Below are positions 1,900 through 35,020 of a DNA stretch of 35,263 nt, piece by piece. Below the pieces are notes generated by a model. It saw nothing but the letters and a program-made list of their open reading frames with translations, was not told the DNA's origin and made no database searches. How positions within the stretch are numbered: position 1 is the first letter of the stretch; the number at the start of each line of letters is the position of its first letter. The translations under genes were made by a program, and so were the position numbers. The stretch is from a virus. Location of the stretch: the IMG/VR virus record IMGVR_UViG_3300043449_000601, positions 1 to 35,263 of that record; one strand, written 5' to 3'.

Positions 1900-2391
1900 A
1901 TGCTAATTGCAAAAATTGAAAACGGCGCTGTGGTCAATGTCGCAGATCACACCGCACTGCTGCCCGACACATCATTTGGCGCTGGTGGGCCTACACTTGC
2001 GCAGATCCAGGAACTTGGATTCGCGCAGGTGACGTTGTGGAAGCCTTATTTCCACGCATTCGAAAAGCTGGTTTCTTGCTCGCCGTACATTGAAGACGGC
2101 ATGGTTTACTGCGTGACTGTTGAGCCCTTGACAGCAGAGGAAATTCAAGCGCAAGACGATGCCATTGCATCTCAGGCCAGATCCGAACGAAACCAAAAAT
2201 TGACTGAATCCGACTGGACGCAGATCATTGACGCCAATCTGGATGAATCTGCGAAAATTCAGTGGCGCGAATACCGCCAGGCGCTTAGGGATTTGACCGG
2301 CCAAGTCGGATTCCCCCATGAAATCGTTTGGCCGACTAAGCCAGGCGCATCCGATCAACTCACAGGCATGGACACAATCAATGGCATTTGA
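1900..2391 (+). CDS. Tail fibre assembly chaperone-like protein
   Basis: The 163-residue protein starts at an ATG preceded by GAGG and three bases after the adhesin stop. Its C-terminal third carries RNQKLTESDWTQ, then WREYRQALRDLTGQ and a closing WPTKPG. This is the signature of the small phage tail assembly chaperones encoded next to fibre genes (Pfam Phage_tail_APC type). Such proteins help fold or attach fibres and are not normally in the virion. The N-terminal 100 residues (MLIAKIENG and following) look like the common fibre-chaperone leader. Position directly after the adhesin supports the call; the exact client is inferred. Confidence 0.72.
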   Translation: MLIAKIENGAVVNVADHTALLPDTSFGAGGPTLAQIQELGFAQVTLWKPYFHAFEKLVSCSPYIEDGMVYCVTVEPLTAEEIQAQDDAIASQARSERNQKLTESDWTQIIDANLDESAKIQWREYRQALRDLTGQVGFPHEIVWPTKPGASDQLTGMDTINGI

Positions 2392-3670
2392 TCTTTTTAA
2401 ACGATTCCGACCAGCCCCCGCGCTGGAGTTGAAGTCCGTCAGTTTGCCAGAGTTGTTGCTCACGATGAGCCGCACCGCGCCGCAATTCCAAAAGTGGGAC
2501 ACCGAAGTCGCCATTGAGCAAGGCCTCAAGGCATCGGCCATCTTTTATGCCTGCGTCAACCGCCGCGCCCAGTCCGTTGGACAGATCCCGTGGGTCGCAA
2601 AGAAAAAGCAACGCGATGGCACGATGATCGAAGCGCCAGACTCGCCACTGCAAAAGCTGATCGACAATCCGAACCCAGACTTCGCATGGGCCGAGATGAC
2701 CGAACTGATGAGCCAGCACATTGACCTGGCCGGAAACTCTTACTGGTCGATCATCCGCGCAGGCAACGCCAACGCACCAGTGGAAGTCTGGCCAGTGCTG
2801 CCCCAAGGCGTCAAGATCCAGCCAGGCAAAACCCGCCTCGTTGAGTTGTACCGCTACCAATACGGCGGCGTGACCAAAGACATCCAAGCGCAGGACATGG
2901 TGCACGTGAAGACGGTCAACCCCAACGACTTTTTGTTTGGCCTGCCGACGATCCAAGCCGCTGGTCGCGCCGTTGACGTTGACCGCGAGGCAAGCCAATG
3001 GCAACTCAACTCAATGCACAACCGAGGGATCAGCGATTACGCCATCGTCATTGACCCGGAGACGACCGCCGAGCAAATGAGCCGTCTGCGCGAGTTGCAC
3101 AAGGAAAAGCAAGCGAGCAGCAACAACGCCCGCGCACCTTTCTTCACGACCCGCGACATTAAGACGCTGAACCAGTCCGCCGTCGAGTTGGACTTTGTGA
3201 ATAGCCGCATGAAAGTCTGGGACGAAATCTGCTCGGCCATGGGCGTGCCGCCAGTCATGGTCGGCATCATGGAAAACGCCACGCTGGCTAACATCGAGAC
3301 AGCCCGTAAGATTTTCTGGGCCGACACGATTACGCCTTTGCTGCGCATGATCCGCTCGCAGCTTAACGGCCAACTGGCCGCACAGTTTGGCCCAGAGTGG
3401 TACATCGACTACGACCTGGGCGGCGTTGAGGCCTTGCGCGAGGACTACTCCAAAAAGCTGGACGAGGCCAAAAAGCTGTTCGACATGGGCGTGCCATTCA
3501 ACGTAATTAGCGAGTTGCTGAAACTTGGCGTTGAACCCATTGAGGGTGGAGACATCGGCTATCTGCAAGGCGGACTGCTGCCCGCCGGGTTTACCGCGGC
3601 TCAAGACAATCTGCAACTGTCCGGCTTGTCGCCCGAGTTGCTGAAAGCCATGGCCTACGGCAAAGAATGA
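2381..3670 (+). CDS. Portal protein (HK97 type)
   Basis: The 429-residue protein forms the dodecameric ring at the capsid vertex through which DNA enters and to which the connector binds. It matches the HK97/Phage_portal family in length and in features such as GLKASAIFYACVNRRAQ near the N-terminus, the NP(N)PDF...LMSQHIDLAGNSYW block and the C-terminal segment around GVPPVMVGIMENATLANIETA. The ATG at 2381 is preferred over an in-frame upstream start at 2318: it gives the usual MAFDLFKRF beginning and only an 11-base overlap with the chaperone gene. It is followed by the MuF-like gene with an ATGA overlap. Unusually, TerL is not immediately upstream. Confidence 0.95.
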   Translation: MAFDLFKRFRPAPALELKSVSLPELLLTMSRTAPQFQKWDTEVAIEQGLKASAIFYACVNRRAQSVGQIPWVAKKKQRDGTMIEAPDSPLQKLIDNPNPDFAWAEMTELMSQHIDLAGNSYWSIIRAGNANAPVEVWPVLPQGVKIQPGKTRLVELYRYQYGGVTKDIQAQDMVHVKTVNPNDFLFGLPTIQAAGRAVDVDREASQWQLNSMHNRGISDYAIVIDPETTAEQMSRLRELHKEKQASSNNARAPFFTTRDIKTLNQSAVELDFVNSRMKVWDEICSAMGVPPVMVGIMENATLANIETARKIFWADTITPLLRMIRSQLNGQLAAQFGPEWYIDYDLGGVEALREDYSKKLDEAKKLFDMGVPFNVISELLKLGVEPIEGGDIGYLQGGLLPAGFTAAQDNLQLSGLSPELLKAMAYGKE

Positions 3671-4449
3671 GCGCCATCAACCCATCAAACAAGCAACGCC
3701 AGCGGGCCATGGATGACGCCATCCAGTCACGCATGAGCGCCAAGTTTGAAAACCGCCTGCGCATTGAGCTTGCCAAGACCGTGCGCCAGGTGGCCGATGC
3801 CTACGAGAAGCGCGGCGAGCTTGCCATCTCGCAAGCCATTGACGATCGAAAACTGTCCACCGCTCAGGCATTTGCGACCAATTACCGCACGGTGGCCGCA
3901 TTTTTTGGAAAGCGTTTGCTCAAAGAGGCCAAGTCACACCCAGGCGCAGAAGTGACCAAGGCTGGCATCATGGACATCTTCAACGACGCGCTGGAAATGT
4001 TCATCACCGAATGGGTGGCCCGCCGTGTCACGCAGATCGACCGCACGACAGAAAACCAGATCCGCACTGTCATCCGAAATGGCCAAGCCGAGGGTTTGAG
4101 CGTGCCTGAGATCGGCAAGAACATCCGCGACTACGCCGCGCCCATGTCGGCGACCCGCGCCAACATCATTGCCCGCACTGAGACGCACACGGCCGCGAAC
4201 TACGGCGCACAGGAAGCCGCGCAACTGACCGGCCTGAAGATGCGCAAAGAGTGGGTGTCGGCGCAAGACGAGCGCACCAGGACAAGCCCTCCCGACGAGT
4301 TCGACCATGCCGAGGCCGATGGCCAGGTGGTGGACATGAACGAGGCATTTACCGTTAGTGGCGAGCAACTGATGTTCCCAGGCGACCCGGGCGCAAGCGC
4401 AGGCAACCTCATCAACTGCCGATGCGCCGTGGTCTATTTGACCGATTAA
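3667..4449 (+). CDS. Minor head protein, Mu F / SPP1 gp7-like
   Basis: The 260-residue protein follows the portal with an ATGA overlap. The family (Phage_Mu_F) places a few copies inside or near the portal and is needed for correct head assembly or DNA ejection. The recognisable part is C-terminal: RANIIARTETHTAANYGA, then W.SAQDERTR, D(H)AEADGQVVDMNEAFTVSGE, PGDPGASAGNLINCRC. The N-terminal 120 residues are charged and helical. No toxin or other extension follows the MuF domain, so this is the short form. It ends 50 bases before the protease start, in the only gap of the head module, which carries a promoter. Confidence 0.9.
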   Translation: MSAINPSNKQRQRAMDDAIQSRMSAKFENRLRIELAKTVRQVADAYEKRGELAISQAIDDRKLSTAQAFATNYRTVAAFFGKRLLKEAKSHPGAEVTKAGIMDIFNDALEMFITEWVARRVTQIDRTTENQIRTVIRNGQAEGLSVPEIGKNIRDYAAPMSATRANIIARTETHTAANYGAQEAAQLTGLKMRKEWVSAQDERTRTSPPDEFDHAEADGQVVDMNEAFTVSGEQLMFPGDPGASAGNLINCRCAVVYLTD

Positions 4450-4451
4450 AT

Positions 4452-4479
4452 TTGACACCCCAACGCCCAATGCGATAAT
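4452..4479 (+). promoter_or_regulatory. Sigma70-like promoter before the protease and capsid genes
   Basis: TTGACA (4452-4457) is a perfect -35. GATAAT (4474-4479) lies 16 bases downstream and has TGC just before it, as in extended -10 promoters. It sits in the short gap between the MuF-like and protease genes. Together with the terminator at 6422-6453 it would give a dedicated protease-capsid transcript on top of the late operon. This is seen in sequence only. Confidence 0.72.
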
Positions 4480-4499
4480 CCGCAAAAGTGAGGACTGAT

Positions 4500-5165
4500 A
4501 TGGAATTCAAAAGCCTGAAATTTGACGAGACGCTTATCAACACGGGCGAGCGCACGTTTGAGGGCTACGCTGCGTCTTACGGCAATGTGGACAGCGATGG
4601 TGACATCATCGAGCCAGGCGCTTTCACCAAGTCCATCAATGAGGGTTTTCCTGCGAACCGCATCAAGGTTTTGTGGCAGCACGAACCCGATGAGCCGATT
4701 GGTCGCCCCATTGAGATGCGCGAGGACTCCAAAGGTCTTTACGTCAAGGCACGCCTGAGCAATGTCGAAAAGGGCATTGAAGCAATGGAACTGATGCGCG
4801 ACGGCGTGATCGACCGCATGAGCGTTGGCTTCTCAATCCCACAGGGCAAGTCGTCCTACGGCGGCGATGGCATCCGCCACATCTATGAAGGCAAACTGTT
4901 TGAGTTTTCCTTGGTCACATGGCCCGCGAACGACCAGGCCATCATTACCGGCGTGAAAACGCTCAAAGATTTGCGGCAATTCGCAGAGGCGCACGACCTC
5001 AACGCGAAGGCCAAAAAAGAATTGCTGGACGAGTTGTTCGGCATTACGGCACTGTTGAAGGGTGAGCCGCTGCAAGGCACTCATTCCAAGGGACAGCCGC
5101 CATTGTCTGTCGATCAGGTCAAAAGCCTGATTGATTCCGCACTGGGCGATCTGGCCCGAATCTAA
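4500..5165 (+). CDS. Prohead maturation protease (HK97, S78 family)
   Basis: The 221-residue serine protease should cleave the capsid N-terminal scaffolding segment and itself during head maturation. It shows the family pattern: FEGYAASYGNVDSDGDII.PGAF near the N-terminus, LWQHEPDEPIG with the catalytic histidine, RMSVGFS with the nucleophile serine, and LFEFSLVTWPAN. The ATG at 4500 is chosen because GAGG lies six bases upstream; a GTG at 4488 would add only four residues. The C-terminal 60 residues are charged and likely disordered. The capsid gene follows 14 bases later. Confidence 0.94.
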   Translation: MEFKSLKFDETLINTGERTFEGYAASYGNVDSDGDIIEPGAFTKSINEGFPANRIKVLWQHEPDEPIGRPIEMREDSKGLYVKARLSNVEKGIEAMELMRDGVIDRMSVGFSIPQGKSSYGGDGIRHIYEGKLFEFSLVTWPANDQAIITGVKTLKDLRQFAEAHDLNAKAKKELLDELFGITALLKGEPLQGTHSKGQPPLSVDQVKSLIDSALGDLARI

Positions 5166-6421: not shown

Positions 6422-6453
6422 GGGGTGGGCCACGGTGGCTCACCCCATTTTTT
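6422..6453 (+). terminator. Rho-independent terminator after the capsid gene
   Basis: GGGGTGGGCC (6422-6431) pairs with GGCTCACCCC (6437-6446), ten pairs including one G-T, with the loop ACGGT. Six T residues (6448-6453) follow after one A. It lies ten bases beyond the capsid stop and just before the next start at 6466, so some read-through is needed for the connector genes unless they have another promoter. Confidence 0.88.
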
Positions 6454-29676: not shown

Positions 29677-29828
29677 CACAAGCACAAAAAGTATTTGAGG
29701 CCATCATGAAGGCCAAAGGGCACACTGACTTCAGCGTGAATGTGTATGGCAAGTACATCAACCCATCTTTGCAACAGCGGTGGGCCTACTTTGCAATGGG
29801 CTGGGAGATGTGCGAGGTGACGGCATGA
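29673..29828 (+). CDS. Small hypothetical protein, 51 residues
   Basis: It starts in an ATGA overlap and reads MTQAQKVFEAIMKAKGHTDF, with a later YINPSLQQRWAYFAMGWEM. The W.YF..GWEM ending recurs in short phage proteins of unknown function. It overlaps the HNH gene by ATGA. Confidence 0.55.
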   Translation: MTQAQKVFEAIMKAKGHTDFSVNVYGKYINPSLQQRWAYFAMGWEMCEVTA

Positions 29829-30307
29829 CCAAAGACGAAGCATTGAAGTTGGCGCTGGTGCTGCGGTATGCCGCAGACACTGGTGAAATTTTCTGGACGG
29901 ATGACGCACCAAAGCTGGTTAAAGGCAAAAAAGCCGGAACCAAAAGCATGGGTTACTTTCGCATCCGCTATGAAGGTAAGTTTTACAAGTCTCATAGGGT
30001 TGCATGGCTGTTGGCGCATGGGAATTGGCCTGAAGGTGAAATCGACCACATCAATGGCGACAAACTGGATAACAGGCTTTGCAACTTACGTGATGTTTCC
30101 AAGTCTGTTAACCAGCAAAATTTGAAGCAAGCCAAGATCGACAACAAAGTTGGATTACTTGGCGTTTCCATGAAGGGCAATCGCTTCAGGGCGCAGATCA
30201 CCATTAACCAGAAAAAGAAAATGCTTGGGACGTTCGCCACAGCAACAGAAGCGCATGAGGCTTATGTCAAGGCAAAGCGTGAAATTCACATTGGGGGAAC
30301 ACTATGA
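29825..30307 (+). CDS. HNH homing endonuclease with AP2 domain
   Basis: The 160-residue protein has GYFRIRYEGKFYKSHRVAWLL with the HNH histidine (His57), then GEIDHINGDKLDNRLCNLR (His75, Asn83), the HNH_3 core. Residues 110-160 (GLLGVSMKGNRFRAQITINQKKKMLGTFATATEAHEAY) form an AP2-type DNA-binding domain. It is a free-standing mobile endonuclease that cuts alleles lacking it. It lies in the tiny-gene cluster, tightly overlapped at both ends, so its insertion has not broken translation of neighbours. Confidence 0.88.
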   Translation: MTKDEALKLALVLRYAADTGEIFWTDDAPKLVKGKKAGTKSMGYFRIRYEGKFYKSHRVAWLLAHGNWPEGEIDHINGDKLDNRLCNLRDVSKSVNQQNLKQAKIDNKVGLLGVSMKGNRFRAQITINQKKKMLGTFATATEAHEAYVKAKREIHIGGTL

Positions 30308-30543: not shown

Positions 30544-30773
30544 ACATCACCATCTACACAAAAACCAACTGCCCAGGATGCGCCAGCGCAAAACAGTTGC
30601 TCAATAGCAAGAATTTGCCATTTGTCGAACTTGACGCCGAAAAGCCATATGAGTTGACCCAACTTCTCCTTCGCTTTCCAGAAGCTCGCCAGATGCCGCA
30701 GATCTTCATTGACGGCCAGCGGGTCGGTGGATTTGCAGGATTGCAAGCCGCACTGCGACAATTGGGGCTATGA
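30540..30773 (+). CDS. Glutaredoxin (TTG start)
   Basis: The 77-residue protein is a small glutaredoxin: MNITIYTKTNCPGC with the CPGC active site (Cys11, Cys14), then MPQIF with the cis-proline (Pro53) and DGQRVGGFAGLQ for glutathione binding. It may feed electrons to host ribonucleotide reductase; no phage reductase gene is present. The start is TTG at 30540 with AAGGAG upstream, overlapping the preceding stop as TTGA. Confidence 0.9.
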   Translation: MNITIYTKTNCPGCASAKQLLNSKNLPFVELDAEKPYELTQLLLRFPEARQMPQIFIDGQRVGGFAGLQAALRQLGL

Positions 30774-31018
30774 GCAAATCCAGACTGCCAGAGATCAGAG
30801 CGCTATTGCGGCGCTTTGACGACGGCATGACGGCTCGCAGCATTTCCGAATATATCGGCGCAAGCCAGGCGGTTACATACAACAGCCTGAATCTGATGCC
30901 CGACGCCTACATCGACCGTTGGACAATCAGCGAAGCAACAAAAGGCCAATATGAGGGCGTCTGGTGCGTGGTGATTCCGCCTGAAAATTGTCCACACCCA
31001 CGAGACGAAAACGAATAA
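30770..31018 (+). CDS. Helix-turn-helix-like small protein
   Basis: The 82-residue protein reads LPEIRALLRRFDDGMTARSISEYIGASQAVTYNSL, a helix-turn-helix pattern of the winged type found in small phage proteins, followed by DRWTISE and a C-terminal WCVVIPPENCPHP. It starts in an ATGA overlap. It is the last early gene before the terminase leader. A regulatory role is inferred. Confidence 0.62.
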   Translation: MSKSRLPEIRALLRRFDDGMTARSISEYIGASQAVTYNSLNLMPDAYIDRWTISEATKGQYEGVWCVVIPPENCPHPRDENE

Positions 31019-31199
31019 AATGGAGTCTTGATTGGCGGGGCTTTCCAATACTTTCAGACGGGAGCGCTCACCTGTCAAAAAGCCCAAATGCCAGACCAGC
31101 GCCACCCGCATGAGAACTCATGGCGCTGAGAGGTCAAGCACCGGAAGGCCGTAAGTTGTAAGGTGCAAATTTGGGAACGAGCAATACAAAGGGAAAACC
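31019..31199 (+). other. Structured non-coding region before the terminase genes
   Basis: This 181-base gap has no gene. Pairings seen: ATTGG (31031-31035) with CCAAT (31045-31049), whose loop GGGCTTT (31038-31044) can pair with AAAGCCC (31079-31085) as a pseudoknot; GACGGG (31057-31062) with CCTGTC (31071-31076); CCCAAAT (31083-31089) with ATTTGGG (31169-31175); GACC plus AGCGCCA (31094-31104) with TGGCGCT and GGTC (31121-31135); GCACC (31138-31142) with GGTGC (31162-31166). TAAAAT (31016-31021) may be a -10. It could be the terS leader RNA, the packaging (cos/pac) site, or both. Confidence 0.6.
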
Positions 31200-31613
31200 A
31201 TGGCACTGACACCAAAGCAGGAAAAGTTTGCGCAATGCGTGGCCGATGGCATGACGCAGGCGGACGCATACCGGGCGGCGTTCAATGTCAGCCCGGACAG
31301 CAAGATCCAAACCGCCATCAAACGAGCGAGCGAGCTTATGCTTGACGGGGACATCTCGGGTAGAGTTGCCGAATTGAGGGAGAAGCTGACGCAAAAGGCC
31401 CTTTGGACGCGAGAAATGAGCGTTCAGGCGCTCTTAACTGCATACCAAGAGGGCAATGCCTCGGTGAAGGTTTCGGCCGTCAAAGAGCTTAATGCGATGC
31501 ATGGATTCAATGCGCCAAAAAAGGTGGATGTCACAAATAGCGATGGGTCAATGTCGGGGGCAATTCTTGGTGATGCCGTGCTGGCCGCGCTGTCACGCAA
31601 ACACTCAGAATGA
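31200..31613 (+). CDS. terS: Terminase small subunit
   Basis: The 137-residue protein reads LTPKQEKFAQCVADGMTQADAYRAAFNV near its start, the helix-turn-helix DNA-recognition unit of Terminase_2-type small subunits, then a coiled segment (VAELREKLTQKALWTREMSV) and a C-terminal part with VKELNAMHGFNAPKK. It recognises the packaging site and stimulates TerL. AAGGGA precedes the ATG. It overlaps terL by ATGA and follows the structured region that may hold its binding site. Confidence 0.9.
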   Translation: MALTPKQEKFAQCVADGMTQADAYRAAFNVSPDSKIQTAIKRASELMLDGDISGRVAELREKLTQKALWTREMSVQALLTAYQEGNASVKVSAVKELNAMHGFNAPKKVDVTNSDGSMSGAILGDAVLAALSRKHSE

Positions 31614-32992
31614 CGCCCGATCAGATTGCGGATTGCAGGAGTGACCTGCTGACATTCACAAAAGCCATGTTCAAGGCCAGAAAAGGCATGGCACTTAAAG
31701 AGAACTGGCACCAGGCCGCAATCTGCGACGCCCTCGAGCGCGTGGTCTTGGGCAAATCCAAGCGCCTCATCATCAACGTGCCGCCTCGATCCGGCAAAAC
31801 CGAGTTGGCAGTCATCAACTTTATCGCTTGGTGCATGGGAAACTGGCCGGATTCCGAATTCATCCACGCCAGCTACTCCAAGCGCCTAGCGACGAACAAC
31901 ACCTTCAACGCCCGGGCGGTGATGCAGCACGAGGTGTTTGCCGAGATTTTTGGCCCGCCTCAGATGCGCGGCGACTCCAACGCCAAGGACGAGTTCAGGA
32001 CAGAGCAAGGCGGCGTGGTGTACGCCACCGGCAACGACGGCACGATCACCGGCTACGGCGCAGGCAAGATGCGCGACAGCTTTGGCGGCGCCATCCTGAT
32101 CGACGATCCGCACAAGGCAGGCGAGGCCAACAGCCCGATCATGCGGCAAAACGTTATCGACTGGTTTTCCACCACCATGGAAAGCCGGAAGAACAGCCCT
32201 GAGACGCCGATCATCATCATCATGCAGCGCCTGCACGAGAAAGACCTTAGTGGCTTTTTGCTTGGCGGCGGCAACGGCGAGGCATGGGATCACGTTAACA
32301 TTCCGGCCATCGAGGACGATCGCTCATTTTGGCCCGAGCAATTCCCCCTGGACGACCTGCGCCGCATGGAAAGCACGGACGCTTACCGATTCGCGGGCCA
32401 ATATATGCAGAACCCGGCCCCCATCGGCGGCGGCATCTTCAAAGACGAGTGGTGGCGTTATTACCAGGTCGCCCCCGCGCTGGAATACCGCACCATTTAC
32501 GCCGACACGGCCATGAAGACCAAAGAACAGAACGACTATTCGGTCTTTGAGTGCTGGGGCAAGACCAAAGAAGGCAAGGCGGTGATTTTGGACATGGTTC
32601 GCGGCAAGTGGGAAGCGCCCGAGCTTTTGATTCAGGCCCGTGCCTTTTGGGCAAAGCACCGCGCCACGGAAAACGGCACTCTGCGAGCGATGAAGGTTGA
32701 GGACAAGGCATCCGGCACAGGGTTGATCCAGACCCTCAAGCGCGAGGGTGTGCCCGTTATCCCAATCCAGCGCAACACCGACAAAGTGACCCGCGCCATG
32801 GACGTCGCCCCGCAGATCCAGGCCGGAAACGTGCTTTTGCCGCAGTCCGCGCCTTGGCTGTCCGACCTGCTGGCCGAGGCGAGCGTATTCCCGAATGGCG
32901 CTCACGACGACCAGCTTGACCCTCTTATGGACGCCATCTCGGATATGCTCAACCCACAGGCCAAGCGCGACATCGTTATGGAATTTTTGTAA
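31610..32992 (+). CDS. terL: Terminase large subunit
   Basis: The 460-residue motor packages DNA into proheads. The ATPase part shows Walker A PPRSGKTE (58-65), Walker B ILIDDP (162-167) and the coupling segment IIIIMQRLHEKDLSG. The nuclease part shows YADTAM (298-302) and HDDQLDPLMDA near the end, supplying acidic metal-binding residues. Length and order match Terminase_6/phage terminase families. The portal gene does not follow; about 4.6 kb of adhesion genes intervene on the circular map. Confidence 0.96.
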   Translation: MTPDQIADCRSDLLTFTKAMFKARKGMALKENWHQAAICDALERVVLGKSKRLIINVPPRSGKTELAVINFIAWCMGNWPDSEFIHASYSKRLATNNTFNARAVMQHEVFAEIFGPPQMRGDSNAKDEFRTEQGGVVYATGNDGTITGYGAGKMRDSFGGAILIDDPHKAGEANSPIMRQNVIDWFSTTMESRKNSPETPIIIIMQRLHEKDLSGFLLGGGNGEAWDHVNIPAIEDDRSFWPEQFPLDDLRRMESTDAYRFAGQYMQNPAPIGGGIFKDEWWRYYQVAPALEYRTIYADTAMKTKEQNDYSVFECWGKTKEGKAVILDMVRGKWEAPELLIQARAFWAKHRATENGTLRAMKVEDKASGTGLIQTLKREGVPVIPIQRNTDKVTRAMDVAPQIQAGNVLLPQSAPWLSDLLAEASVFPNGAHDDQLDPLMDAISDMLNPQAKRDIVMEFL

Positions 32993-33764: not shown

Positions 33765-34112
33765 ATGACAGCAGAATACGACATCACCATTCGCCAGGGC
33801 TCGACCTTCCTGCAAAGCCTAATTTGGAAGGACTCGTCAGGCGTGCCGGTCAACCTCACCGGCTACGTGGCCAGGATGCAAGTCCGCCCAGGCGTTTGCA
33901 GCCCAGATGTCATTGTGGAGCTGACCACCGCCAATGGCCGTATCACGCTTGGCGGCTTGGCTGGAACAATCACCCTTGAGATCCCGGCCACCGTTACAGC
34001 CGCCATCACCGACGGATGTGGCGTTTACGACTTGGAGCTTGAAGCCTCAGACGGCACCGTGACCGCGATCTTGGCTGGCGCTGTCACATTTGAGCGCGAG
34101 GTCACTCGATGA
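33765..34112 (+). CDS. BppU-like small structural protein
   Basis: The 115-residue protein reads [36 protein letters not shown], then [23 protein letters not shown]. This is the beta-sandwich pattern of small proteins at the base of phage fibres (BppU N-terminal-like). It probably docks the collagen-like fibre to the tail. GGGGAAAGC precedes the ATG, and its stop overlaps the fibre gene start by ATGA. Confidence 0.7.
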
Positions 34113-35020
34113 CCGATCAAGTCGTTATCACCGAAGACGGCACGGTCATCATTACCGAGCAGCAGACGCAGATCATTGAGGTGGTCAGCGCTGGGCCGCA
34201 AGGGCCGGAAGGCCAGAGCATCACCAGCGTGGTGGACAACGGCGACGGCACGCTGACTGTTTACTATGGCGATGGGCAATCAGTCATCACCAGCGACCTG
34301 ACCGGCCCCACTGGCCCGCAAGGCGCGACCGGCCCGCAGGGAATCCAAGGGCCGCAAGGCATCCAGGGCGCGACAGGGCCAAAGGGCGACACGGGCGACA
34401 CCGGCCCGCAGGGTTTGACTGGCCCACAAGGGCCGCAAGGGCCGCAAGGCATTCAGGGTTTAACCGGCGCAACTGGCCCACAGGGCCCGCAGGGCATCCA
34501 AGGCGAAACTGGCCCAACCGGCCCACAAGGCCCTCAGGGAATACAAGGCCCGACCGGCGCAACTGGAGCGACGGGGGCAACAGGCCCAGGCGTTGCAATT
34601 GGTGGATCAACCGGCCAAGCATTGGTCAAAGCCAGCGGCACAGATTACGACACCACATGGGCGACCGTCACAACGCCGACCAACGCGCAGACGCTGACCA
34701 ATAAAACGATCACTGACATCGTTTATGCGATCACCGATGGCGCAAGCGTTGACATCAACCCAGCCAACGGTCTGGTGCAAACGTGGACGCTTGGCGCATC
34801 GCGCACGCCAGCAACGCCAACGGCATTTGCAACAGGTCAGGCAGTGATCTTGGTCATCACCGCTGGCGCATACACCATCACATGGACAAACCTTGCCGTC
34901 TCATGGACAAAGCAGGGCGGCGGCGGTACAGCCCCAACACTCAGCACGACCGGAAAGACGACCATCATCTTGTGGAAGGTCGGCACGACTATGTTTGGCT
35001 CTCACCTGGGTGACGCATGA
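34109..35020 (+). CDS. Collagen-like tail fibre protein
   Basis: The 303-residue protein has an N-terminal beta part (residues 1-60, [20 protein letters not shown]), then about 32 collagen Gly-X-Y triplets at residues 66-161 rich in GPQ, GIQ and GAT. A C-terminal domain (180-303) includes [17 protein letters not shown] and [17 protein letters not shown], typical of trimeric fibre heads. It should form a triple-helical stalk holding the LamG adhesin encoded next. Repeat DNA here can recombine and change fibre length. The stop overlaps the adhesin start (ATGA at 35017). Confidence 0.88.

Follow-up and report, generated by a model that had tools for sequence, protein, structure and literature searches.

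The window, by which we mean the whole 35263-nt stretch of virus DNA analysed here (IMG/VR record IMGVR_UViG_3300043449_000601), carries on its + strand, at positions 31034 to 31179, a core of about 146 nt that is almost certainly a real structured RNA. Comparative analysis of its copies shows a pseudoknotted element belonging to a previously unlisted RNA family, of which the copies found in a group of podoviruses are also members. In the window group the element marks the point where the early module gives way to a late module that can be exchanged. We read it as a late-operon leader RNA that would act in cis on transcription, in the manner of the put and EAR (eps-associated) RNAs, and we give this reading as a whole a probability of roughly 0.4.

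The assembly of the window is circularly closed, because its first 127 nt recur at its end; among the closed contigs, the one carrying L010 (G002) has an exact terminal redundancy of 852 nt, compared with overlaps of 121 or 127 nt in the others. The late genes run from terS (31200..31613, +; phrog_51/1595) and terL (31610..32992, +; phrog_38) across the join to the portal, the major head protein, the tail genes and the holin, and the early half encodes an exonuclease, a methyltransferase, replication proteins and a helicase. Between the two, 181 nt (31019-31199) separate terS, the first gene 3' of the element in this phage, from an 82-aa HTH-like ORF (30770..31018, +), which lies directly 5' of the element and always precedes it in the close group. 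The HTH protein, with the pattern MPDAYIDRW...VWCVxxPPxNCP, belongs to a large phage family, for which IMG/VR contains at least 591 relatives. Of ten family members, five showed a match to PF06530 (Phage_antitermQ), which at E 0.09 was too weak for us to treat the ORF as a Q antiterminator. Two further genes may be mentioned: in the border region, an HNH endonuclease with an AP2-like domain (29780-30307; 41% shared with G013), which looks like a free-standing homing endonuclease, and, near the head of the late operon, a tail fibre protein with collagen-like repeats (34109-35020).

Taken by itself, the sequence of the element is unremarkable. Its single-sequence fold was no better than those of shuffles (gap, z -0.53; core, z -0.70), and the folds of L310 and L351, two of the podovirus copies described below, were no better than that of the window; with z values of only about -0.5 to -0.7, single-sequence folding was set aside as evidence for structure. 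Rfam 15 gave no match at the gathering threshold in the window and none up to E 10 for positions 30950-31250, and the L351 copy matched only isrK, at 12.4 bits against a cut-off of 50. The test therefore had to be comparative.

Close copies were collected by TerS, TerL and two DNA-pattern scans of IMG/VR, which located the element in 13 further contigs (L002-L012, L164 and L165), some of them fetched more than once, with one copy in each genome searched. The alignment of the 14 close copies shows fully conserved blocks between covarying stems. Under the structure given below, 98.5% of the cells pair and 7 pairs are changed on both sides, compared with 2.9 in shuffles (0/500), and pairing falls to 29-50% when one strand is slid by 1-3 columns.

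The conserved fold shown by these alignments consists of a 5' strand of helix c, hairpin H1, helix b closing around the stems Pd and Pe, a Pe loop paired back to the 5' strand of helix c, and a final GGGAACG, so that the strand order is c, H1, b, Pd, Pe, c', Pe', b'. All of its parts lie on the + strand. In the pseudoknot helix c, GGCTTTCC, or GGCTTTC(C), at 31039-31046 (family core 31039-31045) pairs with GGAAGGCC, or (G)GAAGGCC, at 31143-31150 (family core 31144-31150). Hairpin H1 (31051-31082) is formed by GACGGG at 31057-31062 and CCTGTC at 31071-31076, and is extended by CTTT at 31051-31054 with AAAG at 31079-31082. Helix b joins CCCAAAT (31083-31089), invariant in the close group, to ATTTGGG (31169-31175), the latter overlapping the conserved GGGAACG at 31173-31179. 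Stem Pd (31094-31135) comprises 8 bp (31097-31104/31121-31128) and a basal part (31094-31096/31133-31135), and stem Pe (31139-31165), with CACC at 31139-31142 facing GGTG at 31162-31165, bears the 3' strand of the pseudoknot in its loop. The 16-nt loop of Pd, CCCGCATGAGAACTCA (31105-31120), is almost invariant in the close group, beyond the needs of pairing, hinting at a contact site; in the podovirus copies it is shorter and altered except for CCCG. A short ORF within the element (ATGCCAGACCAG..., 13 codons) was discarded as a candidate, its length and stops varying among the close copies and the frame not being kept in the distant group. The earlier note had described, from the window alone, a 181-base gap before terS, a CCCAAAT/ATTTGGG closing helix, an interrupted 11-pair helix (here Pd) and a pseudoknot, and each of these is borne out, the pseudoknot in the form of the long-range, covarying helix c. 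The evidence then at hand was insufficient on its own, because the single-sequence fold does not rise above chance.

A covariance model of the close copies matched, in 965 kb of helicase-bearing contigs, a distant copy at L310 16607-16764 (E 3.5e-8), in a phage with a T7/epsilon15-like portal. All 5 viral contigs with a related portal (82-100%) carry the element, at E-values of 6e-9 to 4e-24 that are rough, given the short calibration, and that come from a model in which L310, itself one of the 5, was included. These BPP-1-like podoviruses form a distant group of much lower identity, which has related early genes in common with the window group (about 60% for the exonuclease, about 58% for the helicase) and shares no notable structural gene with it. 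In their copies every helix is kept with different bases. Helix c, which reads GGCUUUC/GAARGCC in the window group, becomes GGCGCUC/GAGCGCC, GGCAUCC/GGGUGCC, GACGCCC/GGGCGUC or GGUGUCC/GGGCACC, and helix b is replaced compensatorily by CCTG.TCT/AGACGGG.

Over 17 copies, paired cells numbered 119/119 for c, 119/119 for b, 101/102 for H1, 68/68 for Pe and 130/136 for Pd, and each helix exceeded its own strand shuffles (0 of 2000 to 5000). In a test that involved no manual choice of strands, the 7 nt that follow the 5' strand of Pe could pair 7/7 with a segment near the 5' end in each of the five podovirus copies, and elsewhere in the element they reached at most 5-6 pairs; the distant helices were partly delimited by hand, a bias that the shuffles and this test remove only in part. 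Every helix thus covaries once the distant group is added, which is the outcome of the covariation analysis that the earlier note had named as a check, and the events are modest in number as independent ones, since only two clades with related early genes are compared. The significant covariance-model matches and the covariation of all helices in the same strand order are what place the podovirus copies in the same RNA family. Across all helices, G-U cells (43 at 13 positions) outnumber C-A cells (7 at 4 positions), counts that are not of independent events. The functional molecule is accordingly the + strand RNA, in the sense of the late genes, because a G-U pair here would be C-A on the other strand.

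Searches beyond these two groups returned no convincing copy. A script combining the helix skeleton with GGGAACG recovered the known copies and a handful of chance matches among 354 loci, and a pattern scan with ACCCC...GGGGNNANNNGGGAACGG gave 11 further loci, none of which was scored convincingly by the model and all of which were read as chance, as was the first scan match, L162, which lies inside a coding frame. Annotated phages and plasmids gave short chance matches only by blastn, and the element was absent next to distant relatives of the upstream HTH ORF (44-58% identity). It was equally absent from BPP-1, DC33 and epsilon15, as well as from two bacterial genomes whose portals are 44-45% related; at the corresponding site BPP-1 has a gap of only about 43 nt. 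None was found in 399 Burkholderiales genomes (model R2) or in 36 genomes of the class (model R3), samples too loose to be informative.

The pseudoknot, the nearly invariant loops and a size within the range of known ribozymes would suit a new class of self-cleaving ribozyme or of RNA-processing element, and phages do carry ribozymes. We regard this as very unlikely, given that no Rfam ribozyme matched even at E 10, the isrK hit of L351 being weak, and that the strand order of the element is unlike the HDV-type order.

In the window group only, the 5' strand of helix c can also enter an alternative helix a (31038..31085, +), in which GGGCTTT (31038-31044) pairs with AAAGCCC (31079-31085) and which is extendable to TGGCG/TGCCA. 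Helices a and b share CCC 31083-31085, and helices a and c share GGCTTT. The competition that the earlier note proposed for this CCC, which can pair with GGG at 31038-31040 or at 31173-31175, exists in the window and its close relatives and is absent from the podovirus group, where helix a cannot form and b and c are kept. Helix a is thereby ruled out as a family-wide switch, and the fold conserved throughout the family is that of b and c. In nested folding of the window, a and b are near-equal (-47.4 vs -46.9 kcal/mol), b with the c duplex added comes out at a similar energy if no pseudoknot penalty is applied, and helix a forms in most of the folded prefixes, before the 3' strands exist; an exchange of a for b and c may be possible, but only within the window group.

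Such an exchange would be the switch, in the close group, if the element were a cis leader governing how the first late gene or genes are translated, stabilised or processed, or a sensor of a ligand or protein, without antitermination. The compact, highly conserved pseudoknotted fold, of aptamer-like complexity, is in keeping with this explanation, as are the isoenergetic a and b, the earlier formation of a in the prefixes and the distance of about 20-28 nt from the element to the start codon in the window group. We nevertheless consider it rather unlikely, for the first gene 3' differs (terS or a ParB-like gene), the ribosome-binding site lies outside the conserved fold, about 50 nt intervene before the start codon of the bbp19-like gene in the podoviruses, the leader has no intrinsic terminator, and helix a is not kept in the distant group.

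The genes behind the element are exchanged from phage to phage. In the window, L004 and L006 it is followed by terS of phrog_51/1595 and terL of phrog_38; in L008, which was tested, a similar terS is followed by an unrelated terL (phrog_2/3717), and the same arrangement was judged from reading frames in L007 and L010-L012. In L164 the element precedes ParB-like genes and a terS of phrog_309. In G005 it is followed by genes resembling ParB and a glucosyltransferase and by a head module of the P22 type. G005 shares with the window the early half and the element (97% identity), and the similarity stops at 31202, right behind the element. Overall, the element is about 97% identical where the presumed DNA-binding part of terS or the whole late module is replaced, and 81-90% identical where only terL is of another type. 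In the podoviruses it does not open the late operon; there it directly follows a bbp20-like gene (in L351, the portal gene) and precedes a bbp19-like gene, 3-5 kb from the terminase. The comparison shows its conservation to be independent of terminase, portal and capsid type, and to extend over two unrelated gene contexts.

As to the exchanged genes themselves, the region between element and terminase in G005 (L183 2254-5639) holds a ParB-like gene and a match to phrog_842 (beta-glucosyl-HMC-alpha-glucosyltransferase), suggesting that DNA modification genes have been inserted at the start of a P22-like late operon. The TerS of the window aligns with that of L164 over the last 31 residues only, and not at all with that of G005. 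In L164 (2921-3370, -) the N-terminal part of TerS is unrelated (phrog_309 vs phrog_51/1595) and the last 31 residues are 61% identical to those of the window, and both proteins precede closely related TerL; the presumed DNA-binding part seems to have been swapped and the tail adjoining TerL kept.

These arrangements bear directly on the two roles put forward in the earlier note, a leader RNA for the late genes and a cos or pac packaging site, the latter recognised by TerS either alone or in overlap with the leader. Cos sites often lie near terS, and in the window the element stands directly before terS and contains inverted repeats. Even so, a packaging site is scarcely credible. The element remains about 97% identical where the N-terminal, presumably DNA-binding, part of TerS changes from phrog_51/1595 to phrog_309, it is kept with the other terL type, the ends of virus contigs do not cluster at it, and a G-U-rich covariation of the sense strand is meaningless for duplex DNA. 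Element and terminase small subunit are not inherited together, and we reject cos/pac as the main role because the element is unchanged when TerS differs and is far from the terminase in the podoviruses. The phi29 pRNA is likewise a phage-encoded structured RNA of similar size in a packaging context, but a motor RNA could hardly persist, as the element does, alongside unrelated terminases and portals, and the element has no Rfam match. The leader role is the better supported half of that proposal, resting on the RNA-like pairing of the sense strand, the invariant ATAAAAT and the position at the module border.

The element is very probably part of the late transcript, and it probably acts in cis on late-gene expression; as judged from its neighbourhoods, it behaves like a component of that transcript that can function whichever late genes follow. 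Transcription would begin near 31028, from a late promoter with the ATAAAAT box, a -10-like motif at 31015..31021 (+) that is invariant in the alignment of all close copies, even in those whose upstream ORF does not include it; no -35 was found with it, and a promoter scan gave no consensus sigma-70 promoter. The nascent RNA would then fold and engage the elongating host RNA polymerase, which could pass the pauses and terminators of the long late operon. One such site is a strong intrinsic terminator at 6422..6446 (+; GGGGTGGGCCA-CGG-TGGCTCACCCC-ATTTTTT), which immediately follows the gene for the major head protein, within the series of late genes, and lies about 10.6 kb 3' of the element on the circular genome. 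It is present in two of four near-complete close relatives with the same late module, sequence-identical in G001 and nearly so in G004, and none of this kind was found at that place in G002 or G003, nor in the podovirus structural genes. Its conservation suggests that the late operon needs read-through. A put- or EAR-like action fits an element that follows the regulatory module, does not depend on which late gene comes next and can also be located within a structural operon.

The independence from neighbouring genes and the two different sites in the late region would also agree with a trans-acting phage ncRNA, processed from the late transcript and directed, for example, at host RNA polymerase, ribosomes or RNA-binding proteins. 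This is quite improbable, as no terminator or separate promoter pair bounds a short transcript at the element, and its orientation is always that of the late genes.

Processive antitermination specifically is a tentative proposal, by analogy with known systems. Lambdoid late leaders (pR'-tR'), where the Q protein and a DNA site act and the leader ends in an intrinsic terminator, occupy, like the element, the stretch that separates the late operon from the last early gene; here, in contrast, the leader has no intrinsic attenuator (terminator hairpin and U-run before the first late gene) and no convincing Q homologue was found (PF06530, E 0.09), and a covarying RNA is present. EAR, the antitermination element of exopolysaccharide operons in Bacillus and other Bacillales, is about as large as the element, has several helices with a pseudoknot and can sit inside an operon; the element differs in matching no Rfam family. 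For put, we know of no pseudoknotted five-helix fold of this kind. The put RNA of the lambdoid phage HK022 by itself suppresses pausing and termination by contacting RNA polymerase, and needs no dedicated protein (PMC9378689); like the element it is a short structured phage leader RNA, but it serves early genes (PMC9378689). We recognised no sequence similarity between the two, and visual inspection of the element revealed neither a boxA nor a put-like sequence. More doubtful still is the full form of the antitermination proposal, a protein-independent RNA antiterminator for late genes, with a fold unrelated to those of put and EAR, that stays with the early module, as an interchangeable part of mosaic phages, while whole late modules with unrelated terminases and virion types are swapped.

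To our knowledge, few structured RNAs with solid covariation have been described in the late regions of double-stranded DNA phages. The present case indicates that a position in front of the terminase does not by itself make an element a cos site. The RNA described here probably serves to turn on the late genes, as a switch or as a helper, and not to package DNA. The clear pseudoknotted fold, the defined module border and the two genomic settings make its role directly testable with reporter fusions. As a natural RNA part it is new and may have bacterial RNA polymerase as its target, and it could explain how mosaic phages exchange entire late modules and yet keep control of them.
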